A DNA stretch of 64,000 nt from Gemmatimonadota bacterium (GTDB taxonomy: Bacteria; Gemmatimonadota; Gemmatimonadetes; Gemmatimonadales; GWC2-71-9). A program made the translations under genes and the position numbers. The notes below the pieces were generated by a model, which saw only the letters and a list, made by a program, of their open reading frames with translations, did not search any database and was not told where the DNA came from. The stretch lies in the NCBI GenBank assembly GCA_003220935.1, contig QHTT01000079.1:1968-65967 (forward strand). The letters run 5' to 3'. Each line of letters opens with the position of its first letter. Within the stretch, counting starts at the first letter, position 1. Below are positions 4,934-59,002 of this stretch, piece by piece.

Positions 4934-6608
4934 TTATGGCTTGGACACCTTGATCGTCGTGCCGTTGCTGCTGCCGTCCACGTCGTGGTTCAGCGTCCGA
5001 TCGTAGATCCGGTCCGGCATCGTCACGCTCACGACCGTGAAGTTCACCGAGCTGACGCTCCGCTTGAGCGACGGGAACAGCACGGTGCACGTCCCGTTAC
5101 CGCCCAGGTCCCCGGTGGTGCAGGTGTTCGAGTTCTGCCCCAGCTGGCTCCAGTGTCCCACCACGGTCGCGCCGTTGAGCGGAGCGTGATTGGCGTCATG
5201 CACGGTGATTTCGACGGTCACCGACCAGTTCGACCCGTTGCGTGACGGGTAGCCGTCCAGGTCGCCGATGTGGATCACGCTCGACGCCCCGTTCACGGTC
5301 ACGGTGGTCGAAGCGTGGCTATTGTCCGCGTTGTCGTCCGTGAGACTGTGGCTCGCGGTGAGCGTGTGATTCCCGATCGTGCTCCCGGTCGTGTTCCAGC
5401 TGAACGTAAGCGTCGTGCTCGCTCCCGCCGCGAGGCTCGCCATGGTCTGCGTCCCGATCGCCACGTTGTCGGTCGCGTCTTGCAGGCTCACATCGAAGCT
5501 GCTGACCGGCTGAGTGCCCGCGTTCCGGACCGCGACGACCACGTTGACCGTAGCACCCTGGGTGACCGCAGTTGGTGCGCTGACGCTCGTGATCGCGACG
5601 TCCGTCACGGGCGTGGGTGGAGGCGAGTTGCCGCCGTCCACGGTCACCCCGAACTGGTTCAGCACCAGGTCGATGCGGTTCGCGATCGTCTGGGTGGAGC
5701 TGCCGGCGAACAGCAGGGCGACGGGGTTCTTGTTGCCGTCATCGGTGACGATCAGAGAGCCCGAGTCGCCGCCGCCGGAGAAGGTCCCGGGCTCGATGAC
5801 GAGCTGATCCACGAACCGGGCTGCCTTGATGCAGAAGCCGAAGAACAGTAGCCTCGTCGTCGAACACGTGATCGCCGTTCGCGTCGCCAAAGATCGTGGC
5901 GCTGGGCGCGCCGTACCCGTCGTCCGTGGGCGTTGCGTTGCCGAGGTCGCTCGTGGTGGAGCGGGCGATGGCGGCGTCGATGGTATTGTCGCCGCCCGAG
6001 AAGTCGATCGTATTGAATGCGGTCAGCGTCCCGATCTGATCGGCTGGAGCCGTGCCGCCGTCGTACGGCCCCGGCTGCAGTGTGGCGTCCCCGATGCTGG
6101 CATCGTTCGAGTTCGCGAGCACGTGGTTATTGCTGAGGACGTAGACGGTGCGCGAGCCGTCCACGACGCGCGCCCCGATCGAGCCGGCTGTGATCGCCGG
6201 ATGGCCCACCGAGAAGCCCAGCGGCGCCGGACGCTGTCGCTTCGTGGGATCGCTGAACGCCACCAGCATGCCCGTCACCTGCGTGACCACGGGAATGCCC
6301 TCGAGCGCGCTCGGCAGCCCGTGCACGTCGGGACTCGCCAGCAGGACCTTGAGGCCCGCCTTGCCGTTCGGCAGCAGGCCCACGGCGGTGCCGACCACGC
6401 CGGGCAGGCGCAAGAGGGCCGCGCTGTGCCGCTTGTGCACGGCGAGCACGGCGTGAATCTCCTGCAACTGATCCCCGGCGAAGTGTCGCTGAGCCGATGG
6501 CCCGATGAGCGCGTCGGGTGAGCGGTCGGAGCAGCCGGTCCAGAGGCTGGCGCCCAATCCGATGACGGCGAGGATTGCGGCGCGGCGGGAAACGCGGAGG
6601 TGCGGCAT
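4934..6608 (-). pseudogene. Trypsin-like serine protease with CARDB and Ig-like domains, internally deleted and frameshifted
   Basis: The start at 6608 has AGGGAG upstream and a lipobox-like LWTGC near residue 24. The protease half shows the chymotrypsin-fold triad regions: SNNHVLA (His), TIDAAIA (Asp) and GGGDSGSLIV (Ser). Downstream come a CARDB adhesion module and a second beta-sandwich ending at 4934. The frame changes near 5850: one frame reads FDDEATVL, the next resumes at FGFCIKAARFVDQ. From my recollection of the family, about 30 residues are missing at that point, so this is a deletion plus frameshift rather than a single-base slip. Either the gene is broken or the assembly is wrong there. 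Confidence 0.75.
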
Positions 6609-8348: not shown

Positions 8349-9576
8349 TCAGTTAACCTGACAGCAGCCATTGGTGCATCGTATCCAGCCCGTCTCGTCG
8401 TCCACCGTCCAACGCCAACGCACCGTCCCTGGGATCTTGACGCTCGGGTGCGGGCGCTGGGTCACGCAACGGTATGTTGCCTTGTGCGAAAGCCAGAACG
8501 GCCAGAGCCAGTAAGGCGACTCGATCTTCGCCCACCACTTGCCGTCCGCTGATGGTGGACAAGTGGGTACCGGGCCCGGCACGTGGCACTCGATCGCCGT
8601 GCCATAACAGAGGTAGATCTTGTTGTCGCCATTCCGGAGGTGCAGTTTGCTTGAGTAGGGGCCAGTGACGTTTGCGGTGGCGACGTGCACCCACGGTTTG
8701 CTCGAGGTGGGGTGAAAGTCGGTCGCCTGATTGAGCTGGCCCAAGACGGGGTTCGGAATGATGACTCCGTGTACCGCGCCCGGCTGAACACCGCCACCTG
8801 CGGCCGGCACCGCGAGTTGTTGTTCGTCGTACCAGCCCTTGATCGCGTACACCTGGTCGGTCCCTGTGGTCGTGGTGAAGCCGGTGATGGGGTCGAACGA
8901 CGGGCCAGCCGACCGCCTGGGCACGTTGGAGCAGCAGGTCGACTCGGCCATCGACAATGCGCTGGCAGCGCCGCTGCGCCAACAGACGCGCCTCCAGTGG
9001 CTCGCGCGAGCAGCTACGCTCGCGTTTCCAGACTACCGATTCAAATCAATTCCCAGGCTCGCCGGAACGGGGGATTACTTGTTGGACGGACAAGCGGCGC
9101 CGCCACTGCGACCCATCGCGATAGAAATACAGGCAGTTGAAGTAGGGCTTAATGGCAAGCGGCGCGTACTCGTGGGTGTCGCTGCTGTAGATCTCGGCGG
9201 CGGGAAACGCCCGCTTCGTGATCGTGTACTTCAGCGTGTCGAGACTGTCGGCCAGCAAGTCTAACCGGAAACTGGCGAAGATGGCATAGAGAGAGAGGTA
9301 CCCGTTGTCTTTGATCAGCTCTTGGCAGTCGTGGAACTCTGGCACGTTGCTGATGGGGCCAGCCAGCGGAATCGTCGTGATGGTCCGTGGATGAGTCACA
9401 ACGCCCCTCAGGGTGCGGACGCTGTCGACCACGCTGATTGCAAACGAGTCGGACGGGCACTCAGGACGCCCGATGGTAGGCGTAGCCGCACCACCTGAGA
9501 GTGTGGTCTCGCAGGCGATCGCGCCCGCGACGAGACTCGAAGCCAGCACCAGGGCCTGCACGCTTTGCCGCTTCAT
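8349..9576 (-). pseudogene. Lipoprotein gene split by a 199-bp inverted insertion
   Basis: The start at 9576 has GAGGAAG upstream and a signal ending in the lipobox GAIAC. The 5' part reads to YFYRDGSQWR at 9100. There a 199-bp block, identical to an antisense piece of the adjacent kinase gene, begins and brings an early stop. Beyond it the frame continues from 8900 as SFDPITGF, then KGWYDEQ, to the stop at 8349. Removing exactly bases 8901-9099 restores one uninterrupted frame of 342 residues. The C-terminal part has several cysteines and a WAKIESPYWLWPFW segment. I do not recognise the function. The gene is either disrupted or mis-assembled. Confidence 0.7.
8901..9099 (+). repeat. 199-bp inverted copy of kinase coding sequence
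   Basis: By direct comparison this block is identical over 199 bases to the reverse complement of 10005-10203. On the + strand it encodes the kinase segment around TLEQQVDSAIDNAL. It sits inside a lipoprotein gene on the other strand. No transposase, terminal repeat or target duplication is visible. Confidence 0.92.
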
Positions 9577-9620
9577 GGTCACTTCCTCTTCTCTAGAGGT
9601 ACAGAGCCCAGCGCGCACGC

Positions 9621-12600
9621 TCACCCAGCCCGGCGCCGCATGCGGCGGACCAGGGGCTGCAAGAACGGATCAGCATCGGACCAGAAAGCCGCGACAGCCG
9701 CCGCCCACCGCGCGGCGACGGCATGGTCCCCCACCCGCTCGGCGAGGTCCGCTCGCAGGGCCATCGCCCGAACCAGGGATCCAGCCCTGGCAGGGTCGGT
9801 GAAAACCTCCGGTGGCGTCGACAAGAGGGAGACAAGTGTCGGATCAAGCCATGTGATCGCCGCCTTCTCGTCACCGAGCGCTGCTAGCAGCCACGCTTCC
9901 GGATAGAGCGCATCGAGCGTCAACTGTGCCGGTGGGAGATGGCGACGCGCTGTCTCTAGCTCGGCGAATAGTCGCCGGACGGCGGCCGTATCGCCCCGCA
10001 GGAACGCCGCTTGTCCGTCCAACAAGTAATCCCCCGTTCCGGCGAGCCTGGGAATTGATTTGAATCGGTAGTCTGGAAACGCGAGCGTAGCTGCTCGCGC
10101 GAGCCACTGGAGGCGCGTCTGTTGGCGCAGCGGCGCTGCCAGCGCATTGTCGATGGCCGAGTCGACCTGCTGCTCCAACGTGCCCAGGCGGTCGGCTGGC
10201 CCGCCTAGCGAAGCGAGTAGCACGAGAGGCAGGGCGGTCTGGGCCAACGGCGCGGGCACGATCCATTCGGTGGCGGCGGGCGGCTCCCGGCCGTACGCAG
10301 CCGCGAGTTCAGCGTGCCCTGTGAGCGCCGCGAGCGTCGCGAGCAAGAGAGGCTCGGGTGCTTTGGGCGGTGGATAGGCCCGCAGCACGGAATCCGCCAA
10401 TGCCCGCGCGGCGCGCAGCCCCGCCACATCGGCGGGGACGGAAAACTTGACTAGCATCCAAACCTCGCCAACGCCGATGCGAACGCGCTCGCCGGGCGTG
10501 GTCGCGAGGGCCGAGGCCCGCCGGAGCGTGTCGAGGGCGGCGGGATTGCCGAGCATCTCCAGAGCGATTGCCAGTGCTTCCAGGGCGTCGGCGCTACGCG
10601 GAAAGGCCGTCACCCAAGCCGTGGCGACCTCGAGGAAGAGCTCGCGCTCGTGGCGGGCAGCCACAGTCACGGCCTCGGGCACGACTTCGAGGGCGAGAGA
10701 CGCTTGGCGGGGGTAAGGGAGGAGCGCCAGCGTGTCCCCTTGCCATATGGGCCGGGCTGCAAAGACGGTGGTGTCGGGTGCGACTGCGCGACCTATTCGC
10801 ACGTTGTTTCCCCCGGTCATCAGCAATTGCCGCACCGACTCGTATGATTCGCCGCGCAGCGACCTGTGTATGGACGGCAGCAATTGGAACGCGCGCACGT
10901 ATGCTCTGATCGCCTGCTGGTAGCTGCTACGGAAACGCCACCCCGATGCAGTGGTGGGGTCGTGCTGCACCGCATCGTCACGGCTGAGGCAGTTGCCCAG
11001 TCCGTACCACGAGGCAAAGTCGTAAGGATCGACGACCGTCAGCCGGGTCCAGACGCGACAAGCGCGGTCGACTTCTGCTCGCCCGAGGGCGAGCAAGGCA
11101 TCCGACAGCAGCTGGTCGCGGCTGGAGAGCCGCGCCCGTCCCGCGGCTGCTCGCTCCGCTGCCGACTGCCAGGTGGCCACGGGTGTGTCGCTCCACGCCC
11201 GGCCCTGCGCCATCCATGACCGTGTCTGCGCCAACCAGAGAAAAGCCTGAGCGTACTGCGGATCGTAACGGGTCGCAGCTGCGAACGCCGAGTCCGCTGC
11301 CGCCAGGTCCCAGCGTTCGATCGCGGCGTGCCCCTGCGCGTACGCCTGGCGAGCTGGAAACGAGTTCGTGCCGGTCTGACTCTCGAGCCGGGCGCCCGGA
11401 CCAGCACTCCCAAAAAGCAGCTGCTCGCCGAGGTTAGCGAAAGCTGCCTCGGCCTTCGCCAGTTTGCTCCCGAGCTTCATCGTGCCGTCCCGCACGAACG
11501 AGCCTCCGCGGGTCACGTCGTACAACGCCGCGTACACCCTGACTGAATCGCCGATGTGCGACACCTCCCCACGCACGTAGCGACCCGCACCCAAATCCAA
11601 GGCCACCGCCCGGGCGTCGCTGCCGCTCAGGGTCCGGCCATCGCGCCGCGCCAGCGCGTCCCGCACCTGGAACGGGTCGACCACCGCAATGCCACTCCAG
11701 TGCGTCAACGCGTCCTGTAGCAGCTCGCCTTCGTTAAGGGGCGTGACGGCGCCTGCATGCACGAATGGCAAAATCACGTAGCGTGAGGTGTCGGCCGAGC
11801 CGGCGGCAGCGGCCCCGTTGCTCCCGGACGGCTGGATGGCAAAGACCCAGTACAGCGCCACAGCCGCCGCCACTGCCGCGAGACCGGCGGCGAGCCAGGG
11901 CCGCAGATGCGGGCGAGCCGCCGGCGCCGGGGCCTCGAGCGCATCCGCGAATTGCGTAACGGTGGCGAACCGGTCCGCCGGCACCTTCTCGAGCGCGCGC
12001 AAGATCGCCTGCTCGACCGACGCCGGCACACTGCGCCGCACCGTGCGCAGCGGCGGCACGGGATCGCTCAAGTGGCGCGCCAGAATCGCCTGGGGCGTGG
12101 ATCCCGTGAACGGCGGGCTCCCGGCGAGCATCTCGTACGACACGCAGCCAAGGCTGTAGATGTCGCTGCGGCCGTCGAGCCGGGTCGAGCCACTCGCCTG
12201 CTCGGGGCTCATGTAGCCGGGCGTCCCAACCGCCAGCCCCGTCTGCGTCAGCTTGTCTTCGCCCGCGGCGGCAAACGCCCGCGCGATGCCGAAATCGGCG
12301 ATCATTGCCTGATCGTTGGCCAGCAGGATGTTCGCGGGCTTGATATCGCGGTGCACCACGCCGTAGCGGTGGGCGTAGTCGAGCGCTTCGGCCACCTCGC
12401 GTGTGATCCGGAGCGCCTCGTCCAGGCGCAGCTGCTTCTCACGCTCCAACCGCTCTCGCAGCGACTCGCCGGCGACGAACGGCATGACATAATAAAGGAA
12501 CCCGCTGGCCTGGCCCGAGTCGTACAGCGGCAGGATGTGGGGGTGCTGGAGCTGGGCCGCGAGCCGGATCTCCCGCAAAAACCGCTCGACCCCGATCGCG

Positions 12601-12758
12601 CTCGACACTTCCGGGTCGACCACCTTGATGGCGGCTGCGCGATCGTGCTTCAGGTCGTGCGCGAGGTACACGGTCGCCATCCCGCCACGGCCGAGCTCGC
12701 GCTGGATTATATAGTGGCCGGCGAGGGCAGCCTGCAGGCGCGTCAGAGCGTCGGCCAA
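9621..12758 (-). CDS. Transmembrane Ser/Thr protein kinase with large TPR-like sensor region
   Basis: 1045 residues. The kinase domain (about 15-275) has the glycine loop GRGGMATV, Lys45 in AIKVV, HRDIKPAN at 136-143, DFG at 155-157 and the SPEQ anchor, so it should be active. A membrane helix spans about 286-308. The exported part first resembles a TolB-like domain (YVILPFVHAGAV onward), then has helical TPR-like repeats rich in alanine, with AFAAATRYDPQYAQAFLWLA and similar. This is the PknB-like layout common in Gemmatimonadota and Acidobacteriota. The C-terminal region supplies the 199-bp block duplicated at 8901. It is likely a one-component envelope sensor; targets are unknown. Confidence 0.9.
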   Translation of the reverse strand: MADALTRLQAALAGHYIIQRELGRGGMATVYLAHDLKHDRAAAIKVVDPEVSSAIGVERFLREIRLAAQLQHPHILPLYDSGQASGFLYYVMPFVAGESLRERLEREKQLRLDEALRITREVAEALDYAHRYGVVHRDIKPANILLANDQAMIADFGIARAFAAAGEDKLTQTGLAVGTPGYMSPEQASGSTRLDGRSDIYSLGCVSYEMLAGSPPFTGSTPQAILARHLSDPVPPLRTVRRSVPASVEQAILRALEKVPADRFATVTQFADALEAPAPAARPHLRPWLAAGLAAVAAAVALYWVFAIQPSGSNGAAAAGSADTSRYVILPFVHAGAVTPLNEGELLQDALTHWSGIAVVDPFQVRDALARRDGRTLSGSDARAVALDLGAGRYVRGEVSHIGDSVRVYAALYDVTRGGSFVRDGTMKLGSKLAKAEAAFANLGEQLLFGSAGPGARLESQTGTNSFPARQAYAQGHAAIERWDLAAADSAFAAATRYDPQYAQAFLWLAQTRSWMAQGRAWSDTPVATWQSAAERAAAGRARLSSRDQLLSDALLALGRAEVDRACRVWTRLTVVDPYDFASWYGLGNCLSRDDAVQHDPTTASGWRFRSSYQQAIRAYVRAFQLLPSIHRSLRGESYESVRQLLMTGGNNVRIGRAVAPDTTVFAARPIWQGDTLALLPYPRQASLALEVVPEAVTVAARHERELFLEVATAWVTAFPRSADALEALAIALEMLGNPAALDTLRRASALATTPGERVRIGVGEVWMLVKFSVPADVAGLRAARALADSVLRAYPPPKAPEPLLLATLAALTGHAELAAAYGREPPAATEWIVPAPLAQTALPLVLLASLGGPADRLGTLEQQVDSAIDNALAAPLRQQTRLQWLARAATLAFPDYRFKSIPRLAGTGDYLLDGQAAFLRGDTAAVRRLFAELETARRHLPPAQLTLDALYPEAWLLAALGDEKAAITWLDPTLVSLLSTPPEVFTDPARAGSLVRAMALRADLAERVGDHAVAARWAAAVAAFWSDADPFLQPLVRRMRRRAG
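10005..10203 (-). repeat. Source copy of the 199-bp inverted duplication
   Basis: This stretch of the kinase gene (about residues 852-918) is in frame and continuous with its surroundings, so it is probably the donor. It is identical to the inverted block at 8901-9099. The copies are 905 bases apart and could support inversion of the intervening DNA by homologous recombination. Confidence 0.9.
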
Positions 12759-12829
12759 GAAGAGGGTCCCGGCGGGGGATGATCTCCATCATAGAGCCCC
12801 TCGTGGCGTGGGGTAAGAGGGCGCGCACC

Positions 12830-12880
12830 TGCGCCCCTACGGGGCGCACATTGGAGCCGAGCGCGGGCTCTCAGCCCGCG
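12830..12880. repeat. Double-hairpin element, copy 1
   Basis: TGCGCCCC-TAC-GGGGCGCA forms a perfect eight-bp stem (12830-12848). About 13 bases later CGCGGGCT-CTC-AGCCCGCG forms a second (12862-12880). The same pair recurs at 13134-13185 with nearly the same spacer. Confidence 0.7.
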
Positions 12881-12898
12881 TAAAATCAATCGCGCAGT

Positions 12899-12995
12899 AG
12901 CAGCCTTCGGTCCCTAGCTGCCTTCAATCCTTACCTTAGCCGCCTTCAATCCCTAGCAACCTTCAATCCCTACCCTAGCCGCCGTCAATCCTTGA
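12899..12995. repeat. Short tandem array with 17/22-base units
   Basis: Five units begin with AGC and carry a CCTTCAATCC-like core. Lengths alternate 17, 22, 17, 22 and about 19 bases; the longer units have an extra TACCT or ACCCT. Cores vary slightly (CCTTCGGTCC, CCGTCAATCC). There are no spacers of CRISPR type. Confidence 0.7.
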
Positions 12996-13133
12996 ATGAG
13001 TCGAGCGGCATCAAACGAGTCGTGGGTCATCGACGTGGGACGACCTTATGAGGGATCTCGTAGCGCCGAGGGACGGGAAGCGCACGGCCGCATCGTTTGG
13101 AACGCACCCTGAGAGAGCACGCTCGGCGCGCGC

Positions 13134-13185
13134 GTGCGCCCCTACGGGGCGCACCTTGGAGCCGAGCGCGGGCTCTTAGCCCGCG
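13134..13185. repeat. Double-hairpin element, copy 2
   Basis: GTGCGCCCC-TAC-GGGGCGCAC (nine-bp stem) is followed by CGCGGGCT-CTT-AGCCCGCG (eight-bp stem). It matches copy 1 over about 50 bases. Conservation of the stems with a changed loop base suggests an RNA or protein-bound structure. Confidence 0.7.
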
Positions 13186-13307
13186 AAATCCTGGCCCCGC
13201 GAGTGGAGATGGTCTGGCAGGAGCAGCCCGACATCCGCACGCGCACCGTGGAGATGCACGTTAGCGTCTGCGGCAGAAGGTTCTGGACATCACCGTCGGA
13301 GGGCACA

Positions 13308-13328
13308 CCGCGGGCTCTCAGCCCGCGG
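13308..13328. repeat. Single hairpin related to the double-hairpin elements
   Basis: CCGCGGGCT-CTC-AGCCCGCGG is a perfect nine-bp stem with the same CTC loop as copy 1. It lies six bases beyond the stop codon of the DUF4328 gene and may serve as its terminator. Confidence 0.55.
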
Positions 13329-13333
13329 CTGAA

Positions 13334-14008
13334 TCACGCCGCTACGCCGATCTGTCGAAACCCCTGCTGGTGACGGTCGATGCGTCGAACGACCTTCATG
13401 GCGAGCACCGCCGCGACCAGTCCGACGGCGTGGACGAACAGCCCCAGGTCGGTCACGTTGGTCTGCTGCTCGAGCGTATAGGCGTCCCGTGCCAGAATGG
13501 CCACCACCACCCCCAGTGCTCCCCACGTCAGGGACACCACCCACCACGTCGCGAGCAGCGCGGGGACGGGCAGGCCGTCATACCCGTCGCGGTCGTTCAT
13601 CGATTCGCTCCGCAGCCACAGATCCCTCATGATCTGGTAGGCCCGCACGAGGTTGACGACGGGAATGAACCAACAGCCGATGGCCCAGCCCCGACTGAAG
13701 CGCGATCGCTTCGAGCCGATCAGCGCCAGGTTACCGTACGCTCGATGCAGCCACACCAGCCACGCGATGCCCGTGCATGCGAACGCCGCCAGCTGTAGCA
13801 TGCCGATAGGCCCATGTCGTGGTGGGCTCGCAGCAGCTTCGCCGGGAAGCAGTTGCGCGCCCGCCATGGCGCGGGCGAGCAACGAGCGTTGCGAGAAGCC
13901 GGACACGATCGCAACGGCGTCGAGCGCCAGGCAGGCGAATAGGAGGTACGTAGTCCACCGCGCCCCTGCGTGCTCGGCGCGGCGCACGGTGCTCAGGTCG
14001 TCGGGCAT
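13334..14008 (-). CDS. DUF4328-type membrane protein
   Basis: 224 residues with about five hydrophobic helices. The hallmark is the segment GWAIGCWFIPVVNLVRAYQIM, which is how DUF4328 proteins are recognised, preceded by WLVWLHRAYGNL. I start at 14008 (MPDDLS); an in-frame ATG at 14041 adds eleven residues without hydrophobic character. Function is unknown in the family. The gene is transcribed away from mrp and towards the repeat-filled gap. Confidence 0.78.
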   Translation of the reverse strand: MPDDLSTVRRAEHAGARWTTYLLFACLALDAVAIVSGFSQRSLLARAMAGAQLLPGEAAASPPRHGPIGMLQLAAFACTGIAWLVWLHRAYGNLALIGSKRSRFSRGWAIGCWFIPVVNLVRAYQIMRDLWLRSESMNDRDGYDGLPVPALLATWWVVSLTWGALGVVVAILARDAYTLEQQTNVTDLGLFVHAVGLVAAVLAMKVVRRIDRHQQGFRQIGVAA

Positions 14009-14088
14009 AGGCGCGTGATCGAGCCTACACCGCCAGTGCAATCCCTATGCCTTCCAAGGGATGCGGCACCGGCGATCCGGCCCGCTCG

Positions 14089-14120
14089 TTGCCCCCCTGC
14101 TTGATTCCTGCGTAGCTTTC
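14089..14120 (+). promoter_or_regulatory. Bacteroidota-like promoter of mrp
   Basis: TTG at 14089-14091 and TAGCTTTC at 14113-14120 are 21 bases apart; the GTG start is five bases further. The MATE gene has the same two boxes at the same spacing with matching flanks. The pattern resembles the TTTG / TAnnTTTG promoters of Bacteroidota and would give a very short leader. Confidence 0.55.
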
Positions 14121-14125
14121 CGCCC

Positions 14126-15223
14126 GTGCCCGCCTCCGACACCCTGCAAGCGCGCGTCGAGCGCGCCCTCGCCCAGCTCCAGAACCCCCGCCTCGGCAAG
14201 GACGTCCTCTCGGCAGGCATGGTGAAGGACGTGGCGGTGGACGGCGCGGGGCAGGTCACGTTCACGTTCACGCTCACGCAAGCCGACCCACCGACCCTCG
14301 CGCGCGAGGCTCGCAAGGCGGTACAGGCCGTGGAGGGTGTAACCGCCGTGCGGGTTAACGTCACCGACGCCGGCGCTGCAGCGGCCGGGCCCACCCCACG
14401 CGAAACCGCTCGCCGGCCCGGCCCCGGAGCGGTGCCGCCACCGCCCACGCCGGTCGAATTGCCGCACCTCGGCAAAGTGCTCGCGGTCTCGTCCGGCAAG
14501 GGTGGGGTGGGGAAGTCCACGGTCTCGGCGAACGTCGCGGTCGCCCTCGCCCAACAGGGGCACCGCGTCGGGCTCATGGATGCGGACATCTACGGGCCCA
14601 ACGTTCCCCGCATGATGGGCGTGGACCAGAAGCCCGAGGTGCGGGGCGGCAAGATTCAGCCGCTCGAGAGTCACGGCGTAAAGATCATGTCGCTCGGGCT
14701 GATCGTGGAGCGCGACGCGCCGGCGATCTGGCGCGGGCCGATCATCATGAAGGTGATCCAGCAGTTCGTGCGGGACGTGGAGTGGGGCCAGCTCGACTAC
14801 TTCCTGGTCGATCTCCCGCCCGGCACCGGCGACGCCCAGCTGTCCCTCGCCCAGACGCTCCACATCCGCGGCGCCATCATCGTGACCACCCCCCAAGAGG
14901 TAGCCGTGGGCGACAGCCTGCGCGGCGCCAAGATGTTCGAGCGCGTCGGCGTTCCGGTGATCGGTGTCGTGGAGAACATGAGCTACTTCGTGTGCCCGCA
15001 GTGCGGCGAGCGCACCGAGATCTTCTTGACGGGCGGAGGCAAGCGGCTCGCCGCAGAGCTGGGCGTGCCGCTGCTCGGTGAGGTGCCACTCCAGGCGCAC
15101 ATGGCGGACCTCGCGGACACCGGGCGCCCGATCGTTGCTGCCGAACCGGACTCACCGGCCGCGCAGGCGCTGAGCGACGTCGCCCGCCACGTCGCGGAGC
15201 AGCTCGCCGCGCTCGCTCACTGA
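14126..15223 (+). CDS. mrp: Mrp/NBP35 iron-sulfur carrier ATPase
   Basis: 365 residues, GTG start, no Shine-Dalgarno but a good promoter just upstream. An N-terminal MIP18/DUF59-like domain (about 1-85) is joined by a proline-rich linker to a P-loop domain with the deviant Walker A GKGGVGKS. The scaffold cysteines are in YFVCPQCGE. Mrp proteins bind a 4Fe-4S cluster at the CPxC motif of a dimer and deliver it to apoproteins. The fused N-terminal domain is usual in bacteria. The next gene starts one base after the stop, so the two are probably co-transcribed. Confidence 0.93.
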   Translation: MPASDTLQARVERALAQLQNPRLGKDVLSAGMVKDVAVDGAGQVTFTFTLTQADPPTLAREARKAVQAVEGVTAVRVNVTDAGAAAAGPTPRETARRPGPGAVPPPPTPVELPHLGKVLAVSSGKGGVGKSTVSANVAVALAQQGHRVGLMDADIYGPNVPRMMGVDQKPEVRGGKIQPLESHGVKIMSLGLIVERDAPAIWRGPIIMKVIQQFVRDVEWGQLDYFLVDLPPGTGDAQLSLAQTLHIRGAIIVTTPQEVAVGDSLRGAKMFERVGVPVIGVVENMSYFVCPQCGERTEIFLTGGGKRLAAELGVPLLGEVPLQAHMADLADTGRPIVAAEPDSPAAQALSDVARHVAEQLAALAH

Positions 15224-15224
15224 C

Positions 15225-15892
15225 GTGTCGCTCGTCGTCGCCACGCTGTTGCTGCTGCAGAGCGGCGCCGGTCTTCCCGACCGTGATCGGCCCGAGCTGC
15301 GCGCCGGGCTCGACACCCTGTACGCGGGCGGCTTCCCCACGGCCGCCGCGTACTTCGCCACCCTCGCCACGCACGACCCAGCCGCGCGCGGGCGTCCGCG
15401 CAGCCCACCGGCCCCACGCGCGAGTTCTGGCTCGCCACCGCGCTCGGCTACCGCGCGCGCCAGCGCGACCTGCAGGGCCACTCGTGGGGCGCCGCGAAAG
15501 ACGGCAAAGCGATGCGGGACGCCTACCGGCGCGTGCTGCAAGCGGACTCGACCTGCGTCGACTGCTACCTGGGGCTCGGCGTCTACCAATACGGCCTCGC
15601 GCGGGCCAGCGCCCTCGCGCGTCTCGTGGCGAAGCTGATCGGCCTCGGGTCGGGGAGCGCCGAGCTCGGCATCAGCTATCTGCGCCGCGTCGCGCGCGAC
15701 GGTGACCTCGCCCGGGTGGAGGCGAACTGGGTGCTCGCAGCGGCGCTGGTGCGCGAGGCCGCGCGCGACCCCGGCGGCCGCGCCGCGCTCGAGCGTGAAG
15801 CCCGCGGCTACGTGCGGCGGCTGGCGGCGCGCTACCCCGGAAATCCGGTGTTCCAGCGGTTCCTTGAGGAGGTCCCCGCCGCGCCGCCATGA
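15225..15892 (+). pseudogene. TPR-type protein gene with internal deletion and frameshift
   Basis: A GTG start one base after mrp opens a signal-like N-terminus (VVATLLLLQ) and a helical stretch to THDPAARG. At about 15385-15400 coding shifts to another frame, which reads TREFWLATALGYRARQRDL, CVDCYLGLGVYQYGLA and on to VFQRFLEEVP. Both halves fit one secreted tetratricopeptide family, in which, as I recall, some tens of residues normally lie between them. The lesion is therefore probably a deletion with frameshift. Function unknown. Confidence 0.62.
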
Positions 15893-16047
15893 GCCTTTCG
15901 GGCCGTTGCGGCGGCGCCACTCTGGCATTGCGCCAGGACCATTATAAGGTAGGGGAGCTGGGTCCGGGGGTGACTTCACCTCGACCAGCTGAGTCTTTGC
16001 ATAAAGTAAGGGCGCGCGCCCCGCCGTCCTGATACATCGGGGACTGG

Positions 16048-17427
16048 ATGATCCAGTCGCGCTTGCTCAGACGTGTGGGGCTATTGCTTGCGCTCGGCGC
16101 GGCGTACTTCATCGCCGGCAAGCTCGGGCTGCGGCTTGCCTTCGTGAACGCCAGCGCGACTGCGGTCTGGCCTCCCACCGGCATCGCCCTCGTCGCCTTC
16201 GTCCTGCTCGGCTACGACGTCTGGCCCGCGATTCTCGCCAGCGCCTTTCTCGTGAACCTCACAACCACGGGCTCGGTGGCGACCTCCATCGGCATCGCGC
16301 TGGGGAACACCCTGGAAGGGGTGGTGGGGGCGTATCTGGTCAACCGCTTCGCCCGCGGTCGCCGTGCTTTCGATCGCCCGCAGGACGTCTTCGTCTTCAC
16401 GGCGCTCGCCGCCATGGTCAGCACGAGCGTGAGCGCCACTGTGGGGGTGACCACCATCTCGCTGGCGGGATACGCGCGCTGGGCCGAGTACGGGTCGATC
16501 TGGTGGACGTGGTGGCTCGGCGACGCCGCGGGCGACCTGGTCGTTGCGCCCGCCCTAATGCTGTGGTTCGTGACGCCGCGCCGCCCGTGGCTACGGGCCA
16601 AGCTGATCGAGGCCGCGGCGCTGCTGCTGTGGGTGATCGTCGTGGGCCTCACCGTGTTCGGGGGGCTGTTTCCGTCCCGGGTCAAGAACTATCCGTTGGA
16701 GTTCCTGTGCGTCCCGTTGCTCATCTGGGCGGCGTTCCGCTTCGCGCAGCGCGAGGCGGCGAGCGCCGTCGTGGTGTTGTCGGCGATCGCCATCTGGGGC
16801 ACGCTGCACGGATTCGGGCCCTTCGTGCGGGCGACGCACAACGAGTCGCTTCTGCTGTTGCAGGCGTTCATGGGCGTCACGTCGGTGATGACCCTGGCGC
16901 TCGCCGCCCTGGTGGCCGAGCGCAACCAGGTGGAGGACCGCTTGCGCCAGCTCGCGGTGAGCGATCCGCTGACCGGCCTCGCCAACTATCGCCAGCTCAC
17001 CTACGCGATCGACGCGGAGATCAAGCGGTTCCAGCGAACCGAGCGGTCGTTTGCCGTTGTGCTCCTCGACATGGACGGCCTGAAGAAGATCAACGACAGT
17101 TTCGGCCACCTGGTGGGCAGCCTGGCGCTGTGTCGCGTGGCGGAAACGCTGTTCGGGTCGTGCCGCGCGATGGATACCGCCGCCCGATTCGGCGGCGATG
17201 AATTCGCCGTGGTGCTGCCCGAGACGGGGGACGCGGCGGCGTGGCACGTCGCCCGGCGCGTCGCCGAGCGGGTGGCGCGGGATGGCGAGAAGCCCCCGCT
17301 CTCTGTCAGCGTCGGGGTGGCGGTATACCCGCGGGACGGCGACTCGTTGGAAGCGCTCCTGAGCGCGGCGGACCGCTCACTCTACGACAGCAAGGCGCGG
17401 CGACGCTCCAAAGCTCGAGCGCGTTGA
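16048..17427 (+). CDS. MASE1-GGDEF diguanylate cyclase
   Basis: 459 residues. The first 290 or so form a MASE1 membrane sensor with about eight helices, including VWPPTGIALVAF and WWTWWLGDAAGDLVVAPAL. The GGDEF domain follows, with SDPLTGLANYRQL, the active-site motif GGDEF at 382-386, and an intact inhibitory site R373-x-x-D376 placed five residues before it. It should make cyclic di-GMP from two GTP and be product-inhibited. The HD-GYP protein at 44260 would be the degrading counterpart. The region upstream (15893-16047) shows no clear riboswitch. Confidence 0.93.
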   Translation: MIQSRLLRRVGLLLALGAAYFIAGKLGLRLAFVNASATAVWPPTGIALVAFVLLGYDVWPAILASAFLVNLTTTGSVATSIGIALGNTLEGVVGAYLVNRFARGRRAFDRPQDVFVFTALAAMVSTSVSATVGVTTISLAGYARWAEYGSIWWTWWLGDAAGDLVVAPALMLWFVTPRRPWLRAKLIEAAALLLWVIVVGLTVFGGLFPSRVKNYPLEFLCVPLLIWAAFRFAQREAASAVVVLSAIAIWGTLHGFGPFVRATHNESLLLLQAFMGVTSVMTLALAALVAERNQVEDRLRQLAVSDPLTGLANYRQLTYAIDAEIKRFQRTERSFAVVLLDMDGLKKINDSFGHLVGSLALCRVAETLFGSCRAMDTAARFGGDEFAVVLPETGDAAAWHVARRVAERVARDGEKPPLSVSVGVAVYPRDGDSLEALLSAADRSLYDSKARRRSKARAR

Positions 17428-31328: not shown

Positions 31329-31419
31329 GAAACGCGGAACGCGGAAGTCGGAACGCGGAACAGATGGGCGAGCTCCGCGCACCCCTGTTCCGCGTTCCGC
31401 GTTCCGCGTTCCGCGTTCC
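31329..31419. repeat. Paired-arm heptad element, copy 1
   Basis: The left arm (31329-31363) is five heptads of GGAACGC type ending GGAACAG. A 21-base spacer follows. The right arm (31385-31419) begins CTGTTCC and continues with four exact GCGTTCC units. The arms pair at 32 of 35 positions. It lies between divergent kinase and fucosidase genes. A second copy is at 48630. Confidence 0.85.
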
Positions 31420-31496
31420 CCACCGCCGCCGCGCCCGCCAGCGCACCCCAAGCGTAGTCCGACGCCGAACCGGAGGGGGCGCTGAACCGGCTGCGC

Positions 31497-33430: not shown

Positions 33431-33820
33431 GGCTGGGCGTCATCTCGGACACGCATGGCTTGCTCCGACCCGAGGTGTTCGACGTATTCCGCGAAGTCGA
33501 CCACATCCTCCACGGCGGGGACGTGGGCAAGCGGGAGATCCTGATCGACCTGGAAGCGATCGCGCCCGTGACGGCGGTATTCGGGAACGCGGATCCTCCC
33601 GAGCTCCGCTCGCGCCTGCCTCAGGCACGAGGCGTTCCCACGAGCCGAGATCATTGTATACGGACACACCCACAAGCCGTTGCTCGAACTCGTGGACAAG
33701 ACGGTGACCGTGATGAATCCAGGTGGGGCGGGGCGTCCCCGCTTCGACCTCAAGCCGTCGGTGGGGATCATGGAACTCGAGCCGGGGATCCCGCCCAGGG
33801 CGCGGCTGGTGCCGCTATGA
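33427..33820 (+). pseudogene. YfcE/MJ0936-type phosphodiesterase with internal deletion
   Basis: The 5' part reads LGVISDTHGLLRPEVF, HILHGGDVGK and TAVFGNADPP, the metal-binding motifs of this metallophosphoesterase family. Near 33620 the frame changes, and the other frame reads HEAFPRAEIIVYGHTHKPLL through NPGGAGRPRFDLKPSVGIMEL to a stop at 33818. From the family as I know it, about 30 residues between these parts are absent. The start is a GTG overlapping ubiX, and the stop overlaps the next ATG, so it was once a normal operon member. Its 3' end has a degraded copy at 36601. Confidence 0.75.
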
Positions 33821-45391: not shown

Positions 45392-46794
45392 ATGACCGAC
45401 ACTCTGATGGTGAGTGTATCCGGCGTACGCGGGATCGTCGGCAAGGACCTGACCGACGACGTCGTGGGCCGCTGGGCACAGGCGTTCGGCGCCTGGATCG
45501 TCGCTGCAGGGAACGGCGAGCGGCGCGGCAGCGGCGCCACCGTCGTGGTCGGGCGCGATGCGCGCACGTCCGGCCCCGCGTTCGCCCGGGCGGCGATGGC
45601 CGGGCTCGCCGCCGCGGGCTGCGACGTGATCGACGTGGGTCTCGTGCCGACGCCCACCGTGCAGCTCGCCGTGGAGCACCACCAGGCGGGCGGCGGGATC
45701 GTCATCACGGCGAGCCACAACCCGATCGAGTGGAACGCCCTCAAGTTCATCGGACCGGATGGCATTTTTCTCGACGGACCGGACGGGGCGCGGGTGCAGC
45801 AGCTGGCGGTCGAAACGACGGTCACAGGCCGGGAGAGGACGGTCAAAGGCCGGGGAAGGGGGAAGGGGGAAGCGCAAGAAATCCGGTCAGATCCCCGCGC
45901 CGTCGAGCGGCACCTCGACGCCGTGCTCGAGCTACCGGCGGTCGACGTCGACCGGATCCGGCGACGGCAGTTTAAGGTCGCGCTCGACGCCGTCCGCGGG
46001 GCCGGCGGGCCCGTGATGCGCGTGCTGCTCGAACGGCTCGGCTGCAGCGTGACGGGAATCAACCTGGAAACCGACGGCCAGTTCCCCCGGGCCCCGGAGC
46101 CGGTGCCGGAGAACTTGGGCGAGCTGTCCGCGCTGGTGCGGCGCAGTGGAGCCGACCTCGGGATCGCGGTGGACCCGGATGTGGACCGGCTGGCGATGGT
46201 GGATGAGACGGGCGCGGCGATCGGCGAGGATTACACGCTGGCGTTCGCCGTGCGAGCGGTCTTGGGGGAAGGGGGAAGGGGGAAGGGGCAAACTGTCGTG
46301 TGCAACTTGTCCACGAGTCTGGTGGTGGAGGATGCGGCGCGTGCGCTCGGCGCCGAGATCGTGCGCACGCCCGTCGGCGAGGTCCACGTCGCCCGCGCCA
46401 TCTTACGCCTTGCGGCTGTGATCGGGGGGGAAGGGAACGGCGGGGTGATGTATCCCGCGCTGCACGCCGGCCGCGACGCGCCCGTAGCCACGGCGCTGGT
46501 TTTGGAGCTGCTCGCGCGGACGCAGCAGACCGTGAGCGAGCTGGTGAAGGCGGGGCCGCGCTATACCATTGTGAAGGCGAAAACGCCCCGCGGCCCGGCG
46601 CTCGAGCCGGTGTACATGGCGCTGCGGCAGCGGTTCGCCGACGCCCAGGTGGACACTCAGGATGGGCTGCGGCTCGCCTGGCGAGACCGCTGGCTCCATG
46701 TGCGGCCGTCCAACACCGAGCCGATCGTCCGGCTGATCGCCGAAGCGCCGACGAGCGTAGCGGCTCGGCAACTGGTCGACGAGGGACGGCGTCT

Positions 46795-48627: not shown

Positions 48628-48629
48628 GG

Positions 48630-48733
48630 CGAACGCGGAACGCGGAAGGCGGAACGCGGAACAGCAGTGGGAGGTCCTGCTCCACGAAGGCGCCCCGTCT
48701 GTTCCGCGTTCCGCGTTCCCCGTTCCGCGTTTG
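48630..48733. repeat. Paired-arm heptad element, copy 2
   Basis: The left arm (48630-48664) has five GGAANGC-type heptads ending GGAACAG. The right arm (48699-48733) has five starting CTGTTCC and continuing with GCGTTCC-type units. The spacer is 34 bases. Arms and boundary units match copy 1 at 31329. It begins three bases after the glmS stop and ends before dtd. Confidence 0.85.
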
Positions 48734-57904: not shown

Positions 57905-59002
57905 ATGAAGCCCACCGCCGCGCCAGCGGCCGACGCCGCCCTCGCGTTGATCAAGCCGGAGGTTCGCGCCCTGACGGCCTACACTCTCGAGGCGCCCCCC
58001 GCGCCCCGGAAGCTCAACCAAAACGAGAGCCCCTTCGACGCCCCCGAGCCGGTGAGGGAGGCCGTGATCCGCGCGATGCGAGGCGAGCCGTGGAACCGCT
58101 ACCCGCCGTTCAACCCCGGGGAGCTGGTCGAGCGGCTCGCCGCCCGCCACTGCTGGCTCGCCAGCGGCGTGCTGGTCGGCAATGGCTCGAACGAGCTGAT
58201 TCAGGCGACGCTCGCCGTGACGGTGGGGACGGGGACCGCGGTGGTCACGCCCGCCCCCACGTTCAGCCTGTACCGCCTGCTCGTCGCGGTGTACGGCGGC
58301 CGCCACGTGCCCGTGTCGCTCACCGCGGATTTCCAGTTCGACGTGGACGCGCTGGTGCGGACGGCCCGCGACACGCGGGCGTCGCTCGTCGTCGTCAACT
58401 CGCCGAATAATCCGACCGGGACGCCGGTCCCCGACGGCGCGGTGGCGCGGCTGCTCGCCGAGACCAACGCGCTGATCGTGATGGACGAAGCGTACCAGGA
58501 CTTCGGCGGGCCTACGGCCGTGCCGCTCCTCAAAGACCACCCGCGCCTGGTGGTGCTGCGCACGTTCAGCAAGGCGATGTCCCTCGCGGGGCTGCGGTTC
58601 GGGTACGCGCTGGCGCACCCGGCGGTGGCGGCGGAGATCATCAAGGCCCGGCTGCCCTACAACGTGAATCGGGTGACGCTCGCCGCCGCTCACGCGGCGC
58701 TCGACGCCGCCGACCTCCTGGCCGAGCGCACGCGCGCGGTGCGGCGCAGTCGGGAGCTGCTGGAGCGCCGGCTCGCGGGCGTCCCGGGTCTCCGCGCCTT
58801 TCCCTCGGCCGCCAACTTCGTGCTCATCCGATGCGAGGCGCGGCCCGCGGCGGAGGTGTTCCGCCGGCTGGTCGAGGAGTACGGGATTCTCGTGCGCGAT
58901 GTGTCGGCGGGCCCCGGCCTGGACGGCTGCCTGCGAATCACCGCCGGTACCGACGAGGACGTCGAGGCGGTGGCTGCGGCGTTGAGCGCGATCCTCGCAT
59001 GA
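57905..59002 (+). CDS. hisC: Histidinol-phosphate aminotransferase
   Basis: 365 residues from the ATG at 57905. Motifs are KLNQNESPFDAPEPV, GNGSNELIQ, SPNNPTGTPV and the cofactor lysine in TFSKAMSLAGLRFGY. The stop overlaps the hisB ATG (ATGA). It heads the cluster hisC-hisB-hisH-nudix-hisF-ATL, all overlapping or abutting and clearly one operon. Confidence 0.94.
   Translation: MKPTAAPAADAALALIKPEVRALTAYTLEAPPAPRKLNQNESPFDAPEPVREAVIRAMRGEPWNRYPPFNPGELVERLAARHCWLASGVLVGNGSNELIQATLAVTVGTGTAVVTPAPTFSLYRLLVAVYGGRHVPVSLTADFQFDVDALVRTARDTRASLVVVNSPNNPTGTPVPDGAVARLLAETNALIVMDEAYQDFGGPTAVPLLKDHPRLVVLRTFSKAMSLAGLRFGYALAHPAVAAEIIKARLPYNVNRVTLAAAHAALDAADLLAERTRAVRRSRELLERRLAGVPGLRAFPSAANFVLIRCEARPAAEVFRRLVEEYGILVRDVSAGPGLDGCLRITAGTDEDVEAVAAALSAILA

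Follow-up and report, generated by a model that had tools for sequence, protein, structure and literature searches.

A 199-bp inverted copy of a kinase gene segment stands in place of native sequence in a putative lipoprotein gene of a Gemmatimonadota draft genome and is probably an assembly or library-chimera error

In the 64,000-nt window analyzed here, which belongs to contig C64 in the draft genome of a Gemmatimonadota soil bacterium (G000; 4.04 Mb, 154 contigs, 85% complete), a gene for a putative lipoprotein is broken by a 199-bp block that is a perfect inverted copy of a segment of the neighboring protein kinase gene on the same strand. The sequence as such is confirmed, and a biological significance is unlikely: we consider it probable that the block arose as a local error of assembly or from a library chimera, in a draft genome of metagenome type. 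The real gene would then most likely encode an intact putative lipoprotein of ~427 residues, as it does in G002, a member of the same genus (record MNIR01000087, Gemmatimonadetes bacterium 13_1_20CM_4_69_16). The features concerned, in window positions, are:

8349–8900, minus strand: 3' part of the lipoprotein gene (~182 residues), severed from its start.
8901–9099, minus strand: 199-bp block in the lipoprotein gene, an inverted perfect copy of kinase codons ~852–918 that stands in place of ~241 bp of native sequence.
8901–8911, minus strand: junction with microhomology; kinase copy CGGCTGGCCCG versus native G002 sequence CGGCTGGTCCG, 10/11 bases.
9099–9100, minus strand: second junction, essentially blunt; the kinase-side and lipoprotein-side flanks diverge immediately.
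9046–9576, minus strand: 5' part of the lipoprotein gene in its present reading (176 aa, i.e. ~160 native residues and a short block-derived tail).
9621–12758, minus strand: gene for an intact Ser/Thr protein kinase (PF00069; 1045 aa, counted from the listed TTG).
10005–10203, minus strand: native (donor) copy inside the kinase gene, 79% identical to the same place in the G002 kinase.

The two arms are exactly complementary over 199 nt and lie 905 nt apart, which confirms the perfect inverted copy that a sequence-only reading of this DNA had described, and its assignment of the donor (kinase codons about 852–918) and of the recipient (the lipoprotein gene) is borne out as well. An inverted match of this length and perfection far exceeds what chance could generate, and the whole genome assembly contains two copies of the block and no third. 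The position of the left arm in the lipoprotein gene is ambiguous by one base. The lipoprotein reading frame runs into a stop codon within the block, after 176 codons. Apart from the block, the two halves of the gene contain no lesion, and their dN/dS values relative to G002 (0.21 and 0.17, with 0.12 for the kinase) indicate purifying selection on both (~0.2).

Deletion of positions 8901–9099 results in an open frame of 342 residues, as had been claimed, and this looked like proof of a clean insertion, but the relatives reveal a replacement. In G002, the lipoprotein gene encodes 427 residues and has 241 bp between the two anchors that flank the block. The relatives have about 80 more residues at this site, and in an alignment of two G003 copies with G023, G011 and G036, the conserved segment PPVARWDWD..YIGI.CG..WCEVG is found there in variants; the 241 bp of G002 likewise include a motif that is conserved in other homologues. 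If the joined, block-deleted protein is compared with that of G002, the match is split at the junction, with in-frame sequence between both parts. The aligned homologues (G002, both G003 copies, G023, G011 and G036) are unbroken at the block position, and those of G100 and G105 each match as one open stretch. The missing native segment was not found elsewhere in G000, the relatives do not have the second arm, the junction is absent from all five genus genomes examined, and no relative found encodes a 342-residue version of the protein. Judged by these homologues, with the length taken from G002 as proxy, the block replaces native sequence, of which about 241 bp are missing at the same point, and the change is not a clean insertion. 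As the relatives carry ~80 extra residues at the site, the ancestral gene is not regained by removing the 199 bp, and as the block replaces native sequence and no relative has the 342-residue form, the continuous frame is a coincidence of about 1 in 3.

The microhomology at the first junction (8900/8901) was judged against G002 as proxy for the lost native sequence. The G002 match sits at the exact codons that run on into the conserved SFDP, and among the kinase/lipoprotein position pairs compared, a fraction of 1.6e-5 gave 10/11 matches. Between G000 and G002, the kinase block is 21% divergent, yet both copies in G000 are identical, and the event, if real, would be very recent. Since both halves of the lipoprotein gene are under purifying selection and have no other lesion, only an extremely recent date would be compatible with a real break. 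The identity had previously been read as the sign of either a recent event or a product of the assembly; this alternative was correctly posed, and other defects of the same scaffold now favor its second branch. In an alignment of the window with contig C35 of G003 (87–93% identity across most of the aligned window) and, where it aligns, with G002, there are five clean losses of 76–109 bp, located within genes or at their starts; the relatives have these genes intact, and four of the five losses cause frameshifts:

~4836: clean loss of ~85 bp in a small gene, frame broken.
4934: clean loss of 76 bp at the start of a small gene, relative to G003.
5847–5848, minus strand: loss of ~98 bp relative to G003, frameshift in a protease/CARDB gene.
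15384–15385, plus strand: loss of 109 bp relative to G003 (about 110–120 relative to G002), frameshift.
33624–33625, plus strand: loss of 80 bp relative to G003 and G002, frameshift in a Metallophos_2 gene, conserved THGDQFGH stretch lost.

Both relatives carry the sequence lost at 15384 and 33624, and the joins at 5847, 15384 and 33624 have almost no homology. The metallophosphoesterase gene is conserved apart from its loss, and the lost piece is absent elsewhere in the G000 genome. Two further sites were not counted as defects, namely 23703 (66 bp, in frame) and the variable region around 46270–46295, which is unlike both relatives. Given the number of fresh breaks in genes that are otherwise conserved, assembly errors are much likelier than biology, and the five losses probably represent further local assembly errors. 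Such loss-type defects may be concentrated on C64; in ~9 kb of contig C124 aligned with G003, no such losses were seen in G000. In G003, an aminotransferase-like gene (C35 ~68587) is short of 75 bp in the region that encodes the C-terminus; the window has this gene intact at 58900, and this type of defect is therefore not limited to one genome. The main lesson of the case is caution: the other broken genes on the scaffold would be mistaken for pseudogenes or variable loci.

It is because this scaffold lost short pieces at several other sites that an assembly error is favored for the block as well. About 241 bp of native lipoprotein sequence would have been dropped in the assembly, and a 199-bp piece of the kinase gene, located about 1 kb away, would have bridged the gap in reverse-complemented form, joined via the 11-bp overlap on one side and bluntly on the other. 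The bridge may have been supplied by a chimeric molecule or by mis-oriented reads, and the junctions would be expected to lack read support. Local assembly errors in metagenome-assembled genomes are known to propagate as wrong gene sequences and are suspected to be commonest in IDBA-UD output (Chen et al. 2020, PMC7111523). Like these errors, the block would be a short wrong consensus inside a scaffold that breaks a gene which is intact at the same place in relatives, it occurs in an N-gapped draft, and the same scaffold has other defects (4934, ~4836, 5847, 15384, 33624) that we infer to be assembly errors. Unlike them, the suspect stretch here duplicates part of a neighboring gene in inverted orientation. 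Amplification chimeras with inverted nearby joins at short complementarities have also been described (Lasken and Stockwell 2007, PMC1855051), and such amplification or library chimeras resemble the present case in being inverted, within 10 kb, with short complementary bases at the junction and with the intervening native sequence missing. They differ from it in that two joins in one molecule would be required here, and in that there is no general excess in 661 kb of the genome.

These 661 kb were sampled as stretches, with N runs excluded, and were scanned for inverted duplicates of ≥30 bp within 6 kb; none was found in addition to the pair described here, apart from one self-palindrome (perfect, 56 bp, L063 14267–14322 on contig C105 of G000, GCCCGCTGGCGGATCGCCGCGCGCGCGATCGCGC...). 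A pervasive MDA chimerism was rejected on the basis of this single nearby inverted pair, as many inverted nearby chimeras would belong to an MDA-type amplification. The N-gaps in the sampled part of the assembly measure 7 to 197 bases, and their variable length suggests scaffolded short reads. It counts against an assembly error that inverted pairs are infrequent here (one in 661 kb) and that the other scaffold defects are simple losses and not inverted copies.

Could the block have arisen in a living cell? The 11-bp microhomology is also compatible with a real template switch, and we regard it as unlikely, albeit as the most serious competitor of the assembly error, that two template switches within a single replication fork very recently inactivated the lipoprotein gene in this strain. 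Plus-strand synthesis, copying the lipoprotein gene from its 3' side, would have slipped at CGGGCCAGCCG onto the opposite parental strand, landed ~1.1 kb ahead in the kinase gene, copied 199 bases in the reverse direction, and resumed its original template ~241 bp further along. The geometry suits such a course, as the copy is inverted and nearby, the departure point has microhomology (10/11, 1.6e-5 of positions), the return at the second junction is blunt, and the net result is a replacement; moreover, the lack of a second inverted duplicate in the scanned 661 kb suggests a single event. In E. coli, inverted double switches with 3–30 bp microhomology are documented, and some inversions have been proposed to arise inside one fork spanning about 1.5 kb (PMC3161906). 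The two junctions, the microhomology and a distance within one fork agree with these precedents, but the E. coli events had been verified in isolates by PCR and sequencing, and in the present case the neighboring defects point to assembly. With 0 differences in 199 bp as opposed to the 21% divergence of the kinase block from G002, the template switch must be very young, and it is hard to accept all of the other gene-breaking losses on the scaffold as real. The hairpin potential of the replaced native segment, with G002 as proxy, is not unusual (z = 0.29; donor block z = -0.99), and the idea that this segment formed a strong fork-stalling hairpin was rejected. A real template switch would offer, from an uncultured lineage, a clean example in nature of inverted switching within a fork, and would be a fresh mutation in a wild soil bacterium, caught with both copies still identical.

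A further possibility is that the assembler picked a real minority variant from a strain mixture over the native allele. A draft assembly may indeed be a population consensus, but no second allele exists among the contigs, and we consider this explanation very improbable. Even less credible, to the point of being negligible, is the idea that the arms are the 199-bp inverted ends of a mobile element or form a functional invertible switch. Recombination between perfect inverted copies is conceivable in principle, and the sequence-only reading had suggested that inversion of 9100–10004 would swap the 3' ends of both genes. The computed outcome contradicts this: the lipoprotein ORF remains the same truncated 176-aa frame, because its stop codon lies inside the arm, while the kinase would have 972 instead of 1045 aa and end with an antisense tail, so that neither sense coding ends nor promoters are exchanged. 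In addition, the arms are internal kinase coding sequence, the spacer contains nothing but the 3' end of the kinase gene and the 5' end of the lipoprotein gene, and the second arm is absent in relatives. There is no target-site duplication and no transposase, and two copies in the genome are all that exist, which does not agree with a transposon or IS element.

The kinase and the putative lipoprotein (window 8349–12758) form a conserved neighboring pair in at least six related genomes (G002, G003, G023, G011, G036 and WYBP01000023), in all of which the kinase homologue beside the lipoprotein gene is full-length, and G003 has two lipoprotein copies side by side. The lipoprotein family has no match in Pfam or PDB. 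In a comparison over window positions 9632–17178, the kinase region is 85% identical to G002 and 78% to G003, while the part from 13.3 to 17.2 kb is 91–94% identical to G003 and ~81% to G002; this mosaic relatedness suggests recombination between species. Small dispersed GGAACGCGGAAC-type repeats occur as inverted pairs in the window (31330–31421, 48628–48732), and 46270–46295 is a G-rich tract inside a gene, where both relatives have a different, longer stretch.
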